From Halorussus halobius (GTDB taxonomy: Archaea > Halobacteriota > Halobacteria > Halobacteriales > Haladaptataceae): a DNA stretch of 64,000 nucleotides. Below are positions 17,522 to 24,019 of the stretch, piece by piece. The DNA is taken from positions 1,054,001 through 1,118,000 of the forward strand of contig NZ_ML219773.1 of the NCBI RefSeq assembly GCF_004765805.1, written 5' to 3'. Below the pieces are notes generated by a model. The model was given only the letters and a program-made list of their open reading frames with translations. It did no database searches and was not told the origin of the DNA. Each line of letters begins with the position of its first letter. Position 1 is the stretch's first letter. The position numbers were made by a program, and so were the translations under genes.

Positions 17522-18163
17522 TCACTCGTCGAGGTGGCTCCGGAGCCGGTCGAACGCCCGCTCGACCCGGCGGTCGCCACACGTCCGCCCGACCGCCTCG
17601 AAGTACGCCAGTCGGTCCCGCAAGGTCGACTGGTCGTAGGCGTCGACCCCGAGCCGCGAGGCCGCGACCGTGGCCTCCACGACCGCGTTGAACCCCCGCG
17701 AGACGGTCGGGACGGTCTCGCACTCGACGGCCGCCTCGCGGGGTCGAAGCTCCCACTCCTCCCACTCGGTGCCGCCGGACTCGCCCGCGTCGACCCGCTC
17801 GGCGGCTACTTCGGCCCACGCGTCGGCGCTCGCGAGTACCGGCTCCTCGATTTCGTAAATCGAGAGCGCGGCGTCCGCGAAGTCCACGGGGTCGCGGGTG
17901 AACTGGACGTAGCCGCCGCCCCGCCGGTGGAAGTTGCGTCGGGTTCGGGTGTTGCCCCACGTCCGCGCGGTGACGGCGGCGGACTCGCCGGGTTCGTCCG
18001 GCGAGTCCGGCGATTCGGGCGGATGGAGGCCCAGCGCGGCGACGTTCCACAGGTCGTTCGGGCTGAGCGTCGTCACGACCGACTCGGTGACGCCCCGGAA
18101 CGCGACCGGCCAGCCGGCGTCCTCGGACTCGGGGCCGGACCCGCCGTCTTCCCGGTCGCTCAC
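17522..18163 (-). CDS. DUF447 family protein (flavin-binding split-barrel type)
   Basis: A 213-residue protein that reads as DUF447. Recognisable blocks are TLSPNDLWNVAALGL, NTRTRRNFHRRGGGYVQFT and DPVDFADAALSIYEIEEP, followed by a helical end with AVVEATVAASRLGV. Known structures in this family have a flavin-reductase-like split barrel; the reaction is not known. It starts with GTG inside the stop of the CitG-like gene (GTGA overlap). It is the last gene of an operon that begins with cofD. Confidence 0.78.
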   Translation of the reverse strand: MSDREDGGSGPESEDAGWPVAFRGVTESVVTTLSPNDLWNVAALGLHPPESPDSPDEPGESAAVTARTWGNTRTRRNFHRRGGGYVQFTRDPVDFADAALSIYEIEEPVLASADAWAEVAAERVDAGESGGTEWEEWELRPREAAVECETVPTVSRGFNAVVEATVAASRLGVDAYDQSTLRDRLAYFEAVGRTCGDRRVERAFDRLRSHLDE

Positions 18164-19020
18164 ACCGTCACCTCCCCGCGTTCGAGGGCGACGAACAGGC
18201 CGGCCGCCGTGAGGTCGGCGGTCGTGCCGGGGTTGACGCCGTCGGCGACCAGCGACTCCGCGAACGCCGCGACCACCTCGGGACCGCCTTCGAGCGCCTC
18301 CTGGGCCCGGACGCGCACGCTCTCGGCGGTCTTCGTGCCGTGCTGTTTCGCGACCAGCGTGTCGGGTTCGCGGGCGAGCAGTTCGAGGTACACCTGCGCG
18401 GCCTTCGCCGAGGCCGGAACCGAGTCGGGCAGGTCGGCGAGCCGGTCGGCCGCCCGGAAGGTGCGCTCGAAGCCGCCGGTCCACTCGGCGGCCACGTCAT
18501 CGTCGTCGTCGCCGAGCGCCAGCACGTCGGACAGCGTCGCGTCGCGCTCCTCGACCGCCGGAATCGCGTCGCTCCCACGGCGGACGTCGAGGGTCTGGGC
18601 GTCCTCGGGCGGGTCGTCGACGAACACGTCGGCGTGGTCGAACGCCCGGTAGAAGTTCGCGGCGTCCTCGGTCGTCGTCGCCTCGACGACCCGCGTCGCG
18701 TCCTCGGGCGAGAGGTCGCCGGAGCCGCTTTCCCCGCCGGAGGCCGCTGCCCGGACTAGCGGGACGAGCAACAGGAGCGCGCCGAACTGGGTGTTGCCGC
18801 CCCGTTGGCGACTCATCCCGGCGACAGCGCGCTCGAACGCCTCGCCCACGGGCGCGCCATCCTCGGCCGCGCGCAGACCCGACCCCGACCCGACCGCGCC
18901 CGCGAGGAAGTGCTCGAATCGCAGGTCCGGGAAGTCGCGCTCGCGGTCGACGTTCCCCGGCTTGGGCGTGCCCGCCACCTCCAGCAGGAGCGCGAGCTGG
19001 GCGTTCTCGGCGGGCGTCAT
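18160..19020 (-). CDS. Triphosphoribosyl-dephospho-CoA synthase-like (CitG family) protein
   Basis: A 286-residue protein of the CitG/MdcB family, which in bacteria makes triphosphoribosyl-dephospho-CoA from ATP and dephospho-CoA. The N-terminal signature LEVAGTPKPGNVDRERDF (14-31) and QRGGNTQFGALLLL (about 71-84) are clear. The C-terminal block VNPGTTADLTAAGLFVAL is also present. No citrate or malonate lyase genes are nearby, so the archaeal version probably serves another pathway. It is stitched to its neighbours by start/stop overlaps on both sides. Confidence 0.8.
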   Translation of the reverse strand: MTPAENAQLALLLEVAGTPKPGNVDRERDFPDLRFEHFLAGAVGSGSGLRAAEDGAPVGEAFERAVAGMSRQRGGNTQFGALLLLVPLVRAAASGGESGSGDLSPEDATRVVEATTTEDAANFYRAFDHADVFVDDPPEDAQTLDVRRGSDAIPAVEERDATLSDVLALGDDDDDVAAEWTGGFERTFRAADRLADLPDSVPASAKAAQVYLELLAREPDTLVAKQHGTKTAESVRVRAQEALEGGPEVVAAFAESLVADGVNPGTTADLTAAGLFVALERGEVTV

Positions 19021-19823
19021 CGCGGCACCTCCCGCCGCTCGCGCTCGCCACGGTCGGCCCGCCCGTTCCCGGCCACACCGTCCCGGCCGCGCTCGGCGAA
19101 CCAGCCGTCGACCGCACTCCGGACCCGCCGGAGGACCGCCGGGTCGTCGCTCGGCCGGCCGACGCTCACCGCGTCCGCGCCGTAGGCCAGATACTCGCGG
19201 ACCGACGCCTCGTCGCGCACCTCGTTGTTGGCGACGACGAACAGGTCGGCCGCGTCGGCCACGTCGGCGACGACCGACTCGGAGTCCATCGCGTCGACGT
19301 GGACCGCGTCGGCTCCGGCGTCGGCGACGACGCGGGCGACCTTGGCGAGGTCGACGCCCGGCACCTCGGCGCGGACCTTGACGCTCACGTCGGCCCCTTC
19401 GCCGGTTGCGGCCGCGACCTGCTCGGCGAGTCGGTCGGGGTTCCCGAGCAGGGACTCGCCCGCGCCGGCCGCGCACATCTCCGCCTGCCGGCAGTGGGCG
19501 TTGAGTTCGAGGACGGCGTCGCGGTCGGCACAGATTCGCGCGACCGCCCGAATCGGCGGCAGCGATGCTGACCGGACGTTGACGCCCGCCCGGAGGTCGG
19601 CGTCGGCGAGCGCCGCGAGTTGGCGGTCCGCGAACGCGACCGGGTCGTCGGGCAGGAACTCCACGCGGTCCCGGTCGACCATCTTCCGGGCGGCCTCGCG
19701 AGTGGGTTCGTCGAGCGCGACGCCGCCGAGCAACGCCGCGCCCGCGAATCGCTCGCCGGTTTCGGCCCACGCGGCGTCCGACCGGCCGCTGAGGCTGGCG
19801 AGCGCGAGTCTGGGTTCGAACAT
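19017..19823 (-). CDS. Dihydrouridine synthase-like TIM-barrel protein (MJ1100-type)
   Basis: A 268-residue TIM barrel similar to flavin-dependent tRNA-dihydrouridine synthases, but shorter. Seen motifs are LELNAHCRQAEMCAAGAGESLL (the DUS-like substrate cysteine region), VSVKVRAEVPG and DAVHVDAMDSE. VVANNEVRD and YGADAVSVGRPS follow. A DUS normally has an extra helical RNA-binding domain after the barrel. Here only a short polar tail follows, so it may act on a small molecule. The ATG start overlaps the stop of cofD by one base (TGATG). Confidence 0.72.
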   Translation of the reverse strand: MFEPRLALASLSGRSDAAWAETGERFAGAALLGGVALDEPTREAARKMVDRDRVEFLPDDPVAFADRQLAALADADLRAGVNVRSASLPPIRAVARICADRDAVLELNAHCRQAEMCAAGAGESLLGNPDRLAEQVAAATGEGADVSVKVRAEVPGVDLAKVARVVADAGADAVHVDAMDSESVVADVADAADLFVVANNEVRDEASVREYLAYGADAVSVGRPSDDPAVLRRVRSAVDGWFAERGRDGVAGNGRADRGERERREVPR

Positions 19824-20863
19824 CACGCCACCTCCCCGGTCGGCTCCGGCGCTCGCCCGACCAGTTCGAGCGCGTCGGCGACCGCTTCCGCCACGCACTC
19901 GGCGTCGCGTTCGTCGGCCATCTCGGTGTCGGTCCGAACGACGGGGCGGTCGAGGTCGGTGCCGTCGGCCTCGTCCAGCACGAACGCGTCGGCGAAGGGG
20001 TAGGCCGCCGCGACGCCCCGCGTCGAGGGGTCGTAGCCCACTGCGTCCATCAGTTTCGCGGCCGGGCCGGAGAACACCTCGTCCTCGACGAACGGCGAGA
20101 CCGCGACCACGGTGGCGTCGCGGAGCGCCTCGCGCAGGGCGTCGATGGCGACCATCGGCCCGATGCTGGTGACGGGGTTCGAGGGCCCGATTACGACTGG
20201 CCCCGCCGCGATGGCGTCGAGCGCGGCTGGCGAGGGGTCGGCCGCGTCCGCGCCCCTGAAATCCACGTCCGCGACTGCGGGGTCGGCGCGGTGGGCGACC
20301 CAGAACTCCTGGAAGTGCATCTCGTCGGCGTAGTCGGATTGGGCGTCGGTGCGGACGATGCTCGCCACCGGGTCGTCGCTCATCGGCACCACGTCAACGG
20401 GCGCGTCGAGCGCGCCCGCGAGCGTGCGCGTGACCTCGGTGAGGCTGTGGCCCTCGTCGAGCAGACTCGTCCGCGTGAGGTGGACCGCCCGGTCGCGGTC
20501 GCCGATCTCCATGAACTCCCCGACCCCCGAGAACCGCCGCCAGTCCGCGAGGTCGCGGCCGGCGGTCTGGGCCTCGTCGGGCAGGTATCGCGGCCCCGCG
20601 TCGAGGTCGGCGGCGTCGGCGAGCGCGCGCAACTCGTCGTGGGTCTCGGTCGTGTCGTCGGCGATGCCCCACCACCGCTCGCGGTCGAGCAGGTCGCCCT
20701 GCTCGAACAGCACGGTGTCGACGTCCGGGCAGACGAGCAGACCGCCCAGTTCCACGTCGTCGCCGGTGTTGGCGACCACGGTGGTCTCGGCCGAGTCGAA
20801 GACGGAGTCGGCTCCCGCGAGGAGTTTCGGGGTGCCGGTGCCCCCGGAGAGGAACGTCGTCAT
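19823..20863 (-). CDS. cofD: 2-phospho-L-lactate transferase (coenzyme F420 biosynthesis)
   Basis: A 346-residue CofD enzyme that joins the lactyl-phosphate (or related) moiety to Fo in making F420. Conserved motifs are [14 protein letters not shown] (4-17), [20 protein letters not shown] and DTVLFEQGD near 50. [14 protein letters not shown] follows near 225. A CATTTACC box on the minus strand about 28 bases upstream supports the start at 20863. It is the first gene of an operon with the DUS-like, CitG-like and DUF447 genes. Confidence 0.92.
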
Positions 20864-21275: not shown

Positions 21276-21431
21276 GACAACCTCAAAAGCAGGAGTCAAC
21301 GAAAACGGCGGGGACCGTGGCGAAGTGAATCTAGATTTTGGAGCCACTCGTTGACGCAATCGAAGGGTCCGTTTCGCCGCCGTAACGCAGCCGGCACGTG
21401 AACTTATCACCTCGTCCACGCTACGGGGGGT

Positions 21432-21593
21432 ATGGACTGGCGAATCGTCGTCGCCGGATTCGTCGTGAGCGTCGGATTCGTCGTCGGCTGGATGGAGTTC
21501 GGCACGCTCGGCGGGGCGGTTCTCTCGGTCGTCTTCGTCTCCGGGCTGTTCCTCGCCGACTGGGCTATCGACGAGTACATCTACGAGGTGTAA
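21432..21593 (+). CDS. Small two-helix membrane protein
   Basis: A 53-residue protein, MDWRIVVAGFVVSVGFVVGW, then a second hydrophobic helix and the tail DWAIDEYIYEV. The two helices cover most of the protein. A GAACTTATC box lies about 28 bases upstream of the ATG, so the transcript is probably leaderless. No family is recognised. It is likely a conserved haloarchaeal small membrane protein. Confidence 0.6.
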   Translation: MDWRIVVAGFVVSVGFVVGWMEFGTLGGAVLSVVFVSGLFLADWAIDEYIYEV

Positions 21594-21676
21594 ATCGAGT
21601 CGTTCCGAGTACTCTCACCGTCGTTCGACCGATCTCCTCCCCGCGCTTTTTATACCAAGACGGCGAAACGCGGAAT

Positions 21677-22918
21677 ATGAAGACCATCAAGGACAGCGTC
21701 CACGACCACATCGAGGTCGAGGGCGTGGCTCGGGAACTGCTGGACGCGCCCGCGGTCCAGCGGCTCCGCCGCATCAAGCAGCTCGGGCCCGCCCACCTCG
21801 TCTACCCCTCCGCGAACCACACCCGGTTCGAGCACAGCCTCGGGGTCTACTACCTCGCGTGCGAGGCGCTCGACCACCTCGGGATTCAGGGCAAGCGCGC
21901 CGAGCGGGTCCGGGCCGCCGCCATCCTCCACGACGTCGGCCACTGCCCGTACAGCCACGCCATCGAGGAGGTCGTCCACCGTCACACCGGCAAGTACCAC
22001 GACGACGTCCACGAGCTCCTCGCCGACAACAAGGTGGGGGAGGTGCTCCGCGACCACGGCCACGCGCCGGACGCCATCGCGGACCTCATCGCTGGCGAGG
22101 GACGACTGGGCCAGCTCGTCGCGGGCGAGCTCGACGTCGACCGGATGGACTACCTCGTGCGCGACGCCCACCACACCGGCGTCCCGTACGGCACCATCGA
22201 CCACGCCCGACTGGTCCGGGAGCTGACGCTGGTCGACGACGAACTCGTGCTGGCGGCGGGCAACGTCCCGACCGCCGAGAGCCTGCTGCTGGCGCGCGCG
22301 CTGATGAACCCGACCGTCTACAACCACCACGTCACCCGCATCGCGCGGGGCATCCTCCAGCAGGCCACCGAGCGCCTGCTGGAGGCCTCGGACGTGACCC
22401 CCGAGCGGCTCCGCCGGATGGACGACGCCGACCTCCTCGTGGCGCTGCGCGAGACGCCCGAGACCGCCGAGTTCGCCCGGCGGCTGAGCGACCGCGACCT
22501 CTACAAGCGGGCGGTGTGGGCCGAGATGGGCGACGTGCCCGAGGCGGTCATCGACGCCGACCACGCGACGCTCCGGGAGTTCGAGGCCGACGTCGCGGCC
22601 GACGCCGGCGTCGACCCCAGCGAGGTCATCGTCGAGGTGATGGCCCGTCCCGGCATGACCGAGTCCGAGTCGCGGGTCGTGGTCAACGGCGAGATACGGC
22701 GGCTCGAGGAGCAGTCGGCGCTGGTGGCCGCGCTCCAGCACGTCCAGCGCGCCCAGTGGCGGCTCGGCGTCTACGCGCCCCGCGAGGCCACCGACGCGGT
22801 GGGCCACGCCGCCGAGCGCGTGCTCGGACTCGAGACCGACGGCGCGCTCGTCAACGAGGTCCGGACGCCGGGGACGCCCACGACGCTCGACGAGTTCGGG
22901 TCGCCGCCGGATAACTGA
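21677..22918 (+). CDS. HD-domain phosphohydrolase (SAMHD1/dGTPase-like)
   Basis: A 413-residue HD superfamily protein. The metal site is visible as H53 (HTRFEHSLGVYY), H85-D86 (ILHDVGHCPYSH) and D155 (GELDVDRMDYLVRDAHHTG), the layout of dNTP triphosphohydrolases and SAMHD1. It probably hydrolyses nucleotides and may help control dNTP pools; the substrate is not proven by sequence. A TTTTTATACC box about 27 bases upstream of the ATG supports the start and a leaderless transcript. Confidence 0.88.
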   Translation: MKTIKDSVHDHIEVEGVARELLDAPAVQRLRRIKQLGPAHLVYPSANHTRFEHSLGVYYLACEALDHLGIQGKRAERVRAAAILHDVGHCPYSHAIEEVVHRHTGKYHDDVHELLADNKVGEVLRDHGHAPDAIADLIAGEGRLGQLVAGELDVDRMDYLVRDAHHTGVPYGTIDHARLVRELTLVDDELVLAAGNVPTAESLLLARALMNPTVYNHHVTRIARGILQQATERLLEASDVTPERLRRMDDADLLVALRETPETAEFARRLSDRDLYKRAVWAEMGDVPEAVIDADHATLREFEADVAADAGVDPSEVIVEVMARPGMTESESRVVVNGEIRRLEEQSALVAALQHVQRAQWRLGVYAPREATDAVGHAAERVLGLETDGALVNEVRTPGTPTTLDEFGSPPDN

Positions 22919-23005
22919 GTTCGACGGCCGACTCCGCCCGGTGTCGGACGCTCGGCGGACGAACGAATGGGGAGCTTCAAGGGCGTTCCGGCGCATCCCG
23001 AACAC

Positions 23006-24019
23006 ATGATTGTCGAGGGGACCGTACTCCGAGGCCCCGAGTTCGAACCGGTAGCGGGCCGCGTCGTGGTCGAAGACGGGGAGATAACCGCAGTCGAGGA
23101 GGCGTCGGTCGACTCCTCGAAGGTCGTGGTGCCGGCGTTCGTCAACGCCCACACCCACATCGGCGACTCGATCGCCAAGGAGGCCGGCGGCGGGCTGAGC
23201 CTCGACGAACTCGTCGCGCCGCCCGACGGCCTCAAACATCGGCTGCTCCGGCAGGCCGACCGCGAGGAGAAGGTCGAGGCCATGCGCCGGTCGGCCCGGT
23301 TCATGCAGCGGACCGGCACCGCATCGTTCCTCGAATTCCGGGAGGGCGGCGTCGAGGGCGTGTACGCGCTCCGGGAGGCGGTCGAGGGGCTGGATATCGA
23401 CCCCGTGATACTGGGGCGCGAGACCGTCGACGCCATGGCGGCCAGCGAGGGGTTCGGCGCGAGCGGCGCGCGCGACGCCGACTTCTCGCGCGAGCGCACC
23501 GCCACCGCCCGCGAGGGCAAACTGTTCGGCATCCACGCGGGCGAGCGCGACGCCGCCGACGTCAACCCCGCGCTCGACCTCGACCCCGACTTTCTGGTCC
23601 ACATGGTCCACGCCGAACCGCTCCACCTCGACCGCGTCGAAGACAGCGGTGTCCCGGTGGTGGTGTGTCCCCGCTCGAACCTCGTCACCGACGTCGGGGT
23701 CCCGCCCATCGCGGAGCTGGTCGAGCGCACCACGGTCGCGCTGGGCACCGACAACGTGATGCTCGACAGCCCCTCGATGTTCCGGGAGATGGAGTTCGCG
23801 GCCAAACTCGCCGACGTGAGCGCCCGCGAGGTGCTCCGGATGGCGACGCACAACGGCGCGAAAATCGCCGGGCTCGACTGCGGAGTCATCGAGGAGGGAC
23901 GCCCGGGGAAGCTCCTCGTGCTCGACGGCGATTCGGACAACCTCGCGGGCGCGCAGGATGTGGTCCGCGCGGTGGTCCGGCGGGCCGGAGCCGGCGACGT
24001 CGCGGACGTGGTCCTGTAG
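23006..24019 (+). CDS. Amidohydrolase-family metal-dependent hydrolase
   Basis: A 337-residue amidohydrolase of the cytosine-deaminase/chlorohydrolase-like group. Metal ligands are H49 and H51 (NAHTHIGD), a histidine in [10 protein letters not shown], another in HMVHAEPLH and the aspartate in LGTDNVMLD. The C-terminal [11 protein letters not shown] and [11 protein letters not shown] complete the family pattern. A frame open from 22967 is extended by 13 residues, but [10 protein letters not shown] at 23006 is the natural start. The substrate is unknown. Same-strand neighbour of RNase J but separated by a 385-base gap. Confidence 0.82.

Follow-up and report, generated by a model that had tools for sequence, protein, structure and literature searches.

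A conserved haloarchaeal operon joining cofD and a flavin barrel to CitG-like and DUF447 genes, and its possible link to a methanopterin-type one-carbon carrier

The operon and its conservation

In the haloarchaeon Halorussus halobius, a 64,000-nucleotide stretch of contig NZ_ML219773.1 (hereafter the window; 69% G+C) carries on its minus strand four genes between positions 17522 and 20863: cofD of coenzyme F420 synthesis, a gene for a TIM barrel resembling flavin mononucleotide (FMN)-dependent dihydrouridine synthases (DUS), a citG-like gene and a gene of the DUF447 family. A first-pass annotation, made from the sequence alone, had described an overlapping four-gene operon here, and the reading frames bear this out, with overlaps of 1, 4 and 4 bases. 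The operon is, however, composed of two modules, cofD-barrel and citG-DUF447, and does not represent one pathway. Its genes and junctions are the following (window coordinates):

19823-20863, minus strand: cofD, 346 aa; CofD, phospholactyl/enolpyruvyl side-chain transfer to Fo in F420 synthesis (TIGR01819, PF01933)
19017-19823, minus strand: DUS-like FMN TIM barrel, 268 aa; PF01207, TIGR00736 below cut-off; candidate dehydro-F420-0 reductase ("CofX")
18160-19020, minus strand: CitG-like (triphosphoribosyl-)transferase, 286 aa; PF01874; proposed addition of the alpha-linked ribose phosphate of a methanopterin-type carrier
17522-18163, minus strand: DUF447 protein, 213 aa, GTG start; PF04289 and PF20766; proposed redox enzyme of that pathway
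19823, minus strand: cofD stop and barrel start, TGATG, 1 base shared
19017-19020, minus strand: barrel stop and citG start, ATGA, 4-base overlap
18160-18163, minus strand: citG stop and DUF447 start, GTGA, 4-base overlap

In profile searches CofD passes the TIGR01819 equivalog cut-off (386.7 bits against 257.45), in agreement with its first assignment to F420 side-chain synthesis. The CitG-like protein reaches 221.3 bits to PF01874 (cut-off 27), and the DUF447 protein passes the cut-offs of both DUF447_N (64.6 bits) and DUF447_C (44.7 bits). Of 80 named haloarchaeal loci, a non-random sample consisting of the best matches to cofD of Halobacterium salinarum, 73 have all four genes in the same order and on the same strand, and 79 keep the barrel behind cofD. 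Barrel, citG and DUF447 are also adjacent, without cofD, in many methanogens. Both observations show that the arrangement is not due to chance.

Loss and relocation of the citG-DUF447 pair

The two modules come apart by loss as well as by relocation. MptG, the beta-ribofuranosylaminobenzene 5'-phosphate (RFAP) synthase, catalyses the first committed step of methanopterin synthesis, and the gene for its haloarchaeal homologue, which lies outside the operon, disappears together with the second module. A sample of 147 Halobacteriota included 28 haloarchaea, of which the same three (G028, G066 and G121, each 99% complete) lack DUF447, CitG and MptG; among 155 Halobacteria no further genome is without CitG, all such calls of presence and absence depending on profile searches. 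In the family of G028, comprising 26 genomes, MptG and CitG are missing from the same four, namely G028, G066 and G297 of the genus g10 as well as G121, and the distribution of the two proteins is identical across all haloarchaea sampled. G121 corresponds to H. salinarum DSM 3754 (100% identity) and G066 to Halodesulfurarchaeum formicicum HSR6 (PMC5437934), g10 being the genus Halodesulfurarchaeum.

The same four genomes also lack the F420-dependent-type Mer ortholog, which scores at least 285 bits in other genomes. In two fragmentary assemblies (G292 and G295) no Mer ortholog was detected, yet MptG fragments and CitG are present, and we read this absence as assembly gaps. H. salinarum, which is known to require methionine, encodes no MetE-family protein, and the three Halodesulfurarchaeum genomes each have one MetE but lack its weak partner, which adjoins MetE in other genomes. 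In all three losers examined, the cofD-barrel pair is retained while citG and DUF447 are gone.

Relocation was observed in Halarchaeum, the genus which g119 matches at 79-87% DNA identity in the cofD flanks. Two named Halarchaeum cofD loci (L148 and L149) lack exactly the 1.5-kb citG-DUF447 stretch, which is present in the congener G289 (L064), and three g119 genomes carry the two genes in an operon with mer and mptG, in two copies in G291:

L060:8062-11442, L061:5351-8752, L062:8801-12186 and L063:5290-8674: mer-citG-DUF447-mptG operons

The genes of this operon overlap by 4, 4 and 1 bases in G290, where a split metE pair (512 bits to NF003317) is located just upstream in divergent orientation; a split metE pair likewise stands beside both copies in G291. 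In the CitG tree, which leaves the majority of deep forks unresolved and places E. coli CitG at the end of a very long branch, the relocated copies fall inside the haloarchaeal clade (100/100), indicating that they moved and were not imported. A plasmid search with CitG yielded one haloarchaeal plasmid only. Elsewhere among haloarchaea cofE overlaps mer, so that genes for the F420 tail pair with both halves of the proposed carrier pathway, cofD with citG-DUF447 and cofE with mer.

The genomes thus link citG, DUF447, mptG, mer and split metE with each other and set cofD-barrel apart as a separate unit. A single four-gene pathway must be rejected, as the two pairs separate by loss and relocation. 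The idea of a linked deazaflavin or folate-like set, put forward in the first-pass annotation, came close in so far as F420 and a methanopterin-type pterin are the probable subjects; it failed in taking the four genes as one unit, the phyletic patterns showing the second pair to be lost or relocated without the first.

Relatives in methanogens, bacteria and Sulfolobus

Methanogens possess a cluster of barrel (TIGR03277), citG, DUF447 and dmrX, which shares three genes with the window in the same order. The gene dmrX, encoding dihydromethanopterin reductase, follows DUF447 in the methanogen locus L065 (TIGR02700, 328 bits), and one non-haloarchaeal genome (G021) contains cofD, barrel, citG, DUF447 and dmrX in one row. 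Two differences should be noted: the methanogen barrel is fused to a Cys-rich methanogenesis marker 9 domain, whereas the haloarchaeal barrel is without it, and dmrX, adjacent in methanogens, is not adjacent in the window. Linkage of citG-DUF447 to mptG (in the Halarchaeum-type genus) or to dmrX (in methanogens) is therefore found, but none such exists inside the window operon.

In methylotrophic bacteria, the islands for tetrahydromethanopterin (H4MPT) or dephospho-H4MPT contain MptG, a CitG-like protein and DUF447, all three as in haloarchaea. The Azoarcus KH32C and Phyllobacterium plasmid islands combine the CitG-like and DUF447 genes with mptG, mtdB, mch, fae, ligases and a flavoprotein in the place of DmrB, and cofD does not occur in the stretch shown of these bacterial islands. 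The window operon is unlike them, as it begins with cofD and the barrel, has its mptG elsewhere and belongs to a host group described as a folate user. With CitG and DUF447 already residing in bacterial H4MPT islands, and beside dihydromethanopterin reductase in methanogens, the operon loses the standing of an undescribed biochemical system that it had been given at first.

Sulfolobus acidocaldarius, included as a control in the profile searches, contains MptG, CitG, DUF447 and MetE, while Mch was not found; this gene set fits the modified pterin known in Sulfolobus. The literature searched contains no previous description of the linkage: DUF447 is mentioned there only in unrelated contexts, and none of its papers connects triphosphoribosyl-dephospho-CoA synthase with methanopterin. 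A role of DUF447 proteins in cannula formation has recently been proposed for Pyrodictiaceae (PMC13140500, 2026); the genomic links described here point instead to pterin metabolism.

A possible methanopterin-type carrier for methionine synthesis

Taking the above together, we propose, with a probability of roughly two in three, that the operon joins two coenzyme half-pathways which meet at one enzyme, one leading to F420 and the other to a methanopterin-type one-carbon carrier for methionine. The individual reactions, as well as the existence of the carrier in haloarchaea, we infer as follows. CofD, by its family, and probably the FMN barrel would act in F420 synthesis. The MptG homologue would couple ribose phosphate with an aromatic acid, the flavin-fold DUF447 protein would perform a redox step such as the conversion of the ribofuranosyl to the ribityl group, and the CitG-like protein would transfer a second, alpha-linked ribose (tri)phosphate. 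Once loaded, the carrier would be reduced to its methyl form by the F420-dependent Mer, and the split MetE pair would use the methyl carrier for methionine. Folates may coexist with such a carrier. Only tentatively, and with somewhat less than even odds, do we extend this to most haloarchaea making an undescribed methanopterin-type pterin beside folate by means of MptG, CitG and DUF447, and using it in the methyl branch only, with Mer as its reductase and split MetE as the acceptor of the methyl group.

CitG is known to transfer a triphosphoribosyl group from ATP to dephospho-CoA in an alpha linkage. Methanopterin and its bacterial dephospho form both carry a second, alpha-linked ribose on the arylribitol, and we know of no enzyme assigned to its attachment. 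The protein of the window shares the Pfam family and motif positions with the triphosphoribosyl-dephospho-CoA synthases CitG/MdcB; as it agrees with E. coli CitG at the KPG, N-T-x-x-G, D and PG-x-x-AD positions, it is proposed to add an alpha-linked ribose phosphate, and it is probably the protein that attaches the second ribose. It differs from E. coli CitG in the very long branch separating the two and in failing the NCBIfam CitG/MdcB equivalog cut-offs (23.7-23.9 bits against 272-282), and in haloarchaea a Gln replaces the His of the N-T-x-F-G-A motif; a solved relative is 3h9p. As had been remarked from the sequence, the protein has no apparent lyase to serve: citrate or malonate lyase genes are absent from the neighbourhoods read (the whole genome was not searched for a lyase), and with equivalog scores of about 24 bits a function for such an enzyme is unsupported. 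The DUF447 protein, whose fold is flavin-reductase-like, has solved relatives of unassigned function (2iml, 2ptf and 2nr4) and residues that do not vary between haloarchaea, methanogens and the H4MPT islands of bacteria; a redox step, for example from ribofuranosyl to ribityl, is proposed for it.

Most intact haloarchaeal mptG genes encode proteins with about 130-171 bits to the TIGR00144 subfamily, passing its cut-off of 113.5. Of 60 columns that show no variation among the methanogen and bacterial enzymes compared, 40 are kept, and R26 is preserved in 10 of 10 sequences. Co-loss and operon structure indicate that this homologue shares a pathway with CitG, DUF447 and Mer, without proving methanopterin as its product. 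In one genome (G000) the gene was found on contigs C4 (61137-62081) and C7 (122627-123571, at the very end) with identical scores, probably an assembly redundancy. Against the NCBIfam models for methylene-H4MPT reductase, the haloarchaeal Mer scores 421.6 bits to NF002619 (cut-off 276), as opposed to 290.8 bits to TIGR03555 (cut-off 348.7). Most halophilic archaea have been described as having archaeal split MetE as their only methionine synthase (Price et al. 2021, PMC7857596). The genomes compared here tie its presence to that of MptG, CitG, DUF447 and Mer, and this would identify its pterin.

Several observations weigh against this proposal. According to Pfeiffer and Dyall-Smith (2021, PMC8305020), haloarchaea use tetrahydrofolate and lack the methanopterin-specific enzymes, and their MptG homologue, HVO_2628, is unlikely to produce RFAP. 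Haloarchaeal MptG reaches 158 bits to the NF040726 equivalog, below the cut-off of 328, and where all the methanogen and bacterial enzymes compared have Asp19, nine of ten haloarchaeal sequences have Asn and one has Thr (e.g. L163:8135-9076). A D19N variant of the Methanothermobacter enzyme showed partial activity and a threefold higher KM for para-aminobenzoic acid (PMC6787355), and the substrate of haloarchaeal MptG may therefore be a different one. Moreover, Mch occurs in every one of the 155 Halobacteria, even in the three losers; it is consequently not tied to this carrier, and we reject it as a member of the module. Finally, the co-loss comprises two independent events only, one in H. 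salinarum and one in Halodesulfurarchaeum.

Some of these points would also suit a re-purposed MptG-CitG-DUF447 set which decorates folate, for instance by ribosylation, or makes another aryl-ribosyl compound, with Mer and split MetE using the modified folate. Folate as the haloarchaeal carrier (PMC8305020), the divergence of MptG at position 19, the Gln in the CitG motif and the retention of Mch in the losers all agree with it. Nevertheless, we consider it unlikely, given the conserved columns of MptG including R26, the inheritance of CitG and DUF447 with the archaeal set according to the CitG tree, and the company of methanopterin genes in which both are found in methanogens and bacteria. 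That all four genes form one F420 branch making a modified F420, as cofD at the head of 79 of 80 haloarchaeal loci, the full order in 73 and the overlapping starts might suggest, is highly improbable, because cofD-barrel stays in place where citG-DUF447 has been lost or moved, because the latter pair joins mer and mptG instead, and because it accompanies no cofD in the stretch shown of the bacterial islands.

If the operon does join F420 synthesis to a methanopterin-type carrier, four loosely annotated haloarchaeal genes become a testable pathway, which challenges the published folate-only view of Halobacteria. The CitG-like protein would be a named candidate for the second-ribose step of methanopterin, relevant to methanogens and methylotrophs alike, with DUF447 as the redox candidate, and the proposal would supply the pterin for archaeal split MetE along with a candidate for the missing archaeal dehydro-F420-0 reductase.

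Weak matches to the methylenetetrahydrofolate reductase (MTHFR) family occur in 31 of 155 Halobacteria genomes, and a 518-aa MTHFR-family protein is, among the matches listed, confined to Halodesulfurarchaeum; H. salinarum has neither an MTHFR match nor MetE. A clean replacement of Mer by MTHFR is only partly supported, as 29 of the 31 genomes keep CitG and with it the module. In Halodesulfurarchaeum (L177:4980-9847), genes for an AcsV-like corrinoid activator, an MtrH-like methyltransferase, an MTHFR-family protein and FolD (recognised by eye) lie side by side, consistent with a folate/corrinoid methyl route replacing Mer.

The barrel behind cofD

The barrel was first taken for a shortened DUS without an RNA-binding domain, and fold matches, conserved residues and the AlphaFold model support this description. 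It matches the Dus family PF01207 with 29.8 bits, containing the Dus catalytic domain with a Cys at the active-site position, and scores 127.4 bits to the archaeal DUS-like model TIGR00736, short of the equivalog cut-off of 218.7. Its best fold matches are dihydroorotate dehydrogenase B, DusC and dihydropyrimidine dehydrogenase. Invariant over twelve sequences are AHCRQ (with Cys111), K149, R151, H175, N199, N200 and R223. The AlphaFold model is good (pLDDT 89), although its confidence is very low for most of residues 249-268, and no C-terminal RNA-binding domain was found in the 268 residues.

As the barrel stays with cofD when all else leaves, it is suggested to be a dehydro-F420-0 reductase. 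A separate archaeal reductase of this kind has been predicted to be required and was named CofX (Bashiri et al. 2019, PMC6450877); the barrel might fill this place by reducing the enolpyruvyl C=C bond of the CofD product with FMNH2. The 1-base overlap with cofD, the persistence of the pair upon loss of citG-DUF447 and the fold class, whose members reduce conjugated C=C bonds with FMN, all favour such a role. We nonetheless regard it as doubtful, since in most methanogens examined the barrel is not beside cofD but sits with citG, the barrel model misses some genomes likely to produce F420, and archaeal CofC and CofD have been argued to prefer 2-phospholactate (PMC8764529), in which case no reductase would be needed.

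It is less probable still that the barrel is a plain tRNA dihydrouridine synthase whose co-transcription with cofD has no metabolic meaning. The Dus Pfam match, DusC among the best folds and the kept catalytic Cys position would be expected of such an enzyme, but the lack of an RNA-binding domain in a short protein with a disordered tail, the missed TIGR00736 cut-off, the adjacency to cofD in 79 of 80 named loci, and the methanogen counterpart, fused to the marker 9 domain and standing with citG, DUF447 and dmrX, argue against it.

Neighbouring genes

Next to cofD and divergent from it, the window contains genes for an HD-domain protein (21398-22918) and an amidohydrolase (22967-24019; "chlorohydrolase" model NF005552). 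The HD-domain protein was considered as the missing MptB and rejected, as it gave no methanopterin signal and only a weak dGTPase match. Both neighbours recur in the Halobacteriaceae loci L056 and L064.

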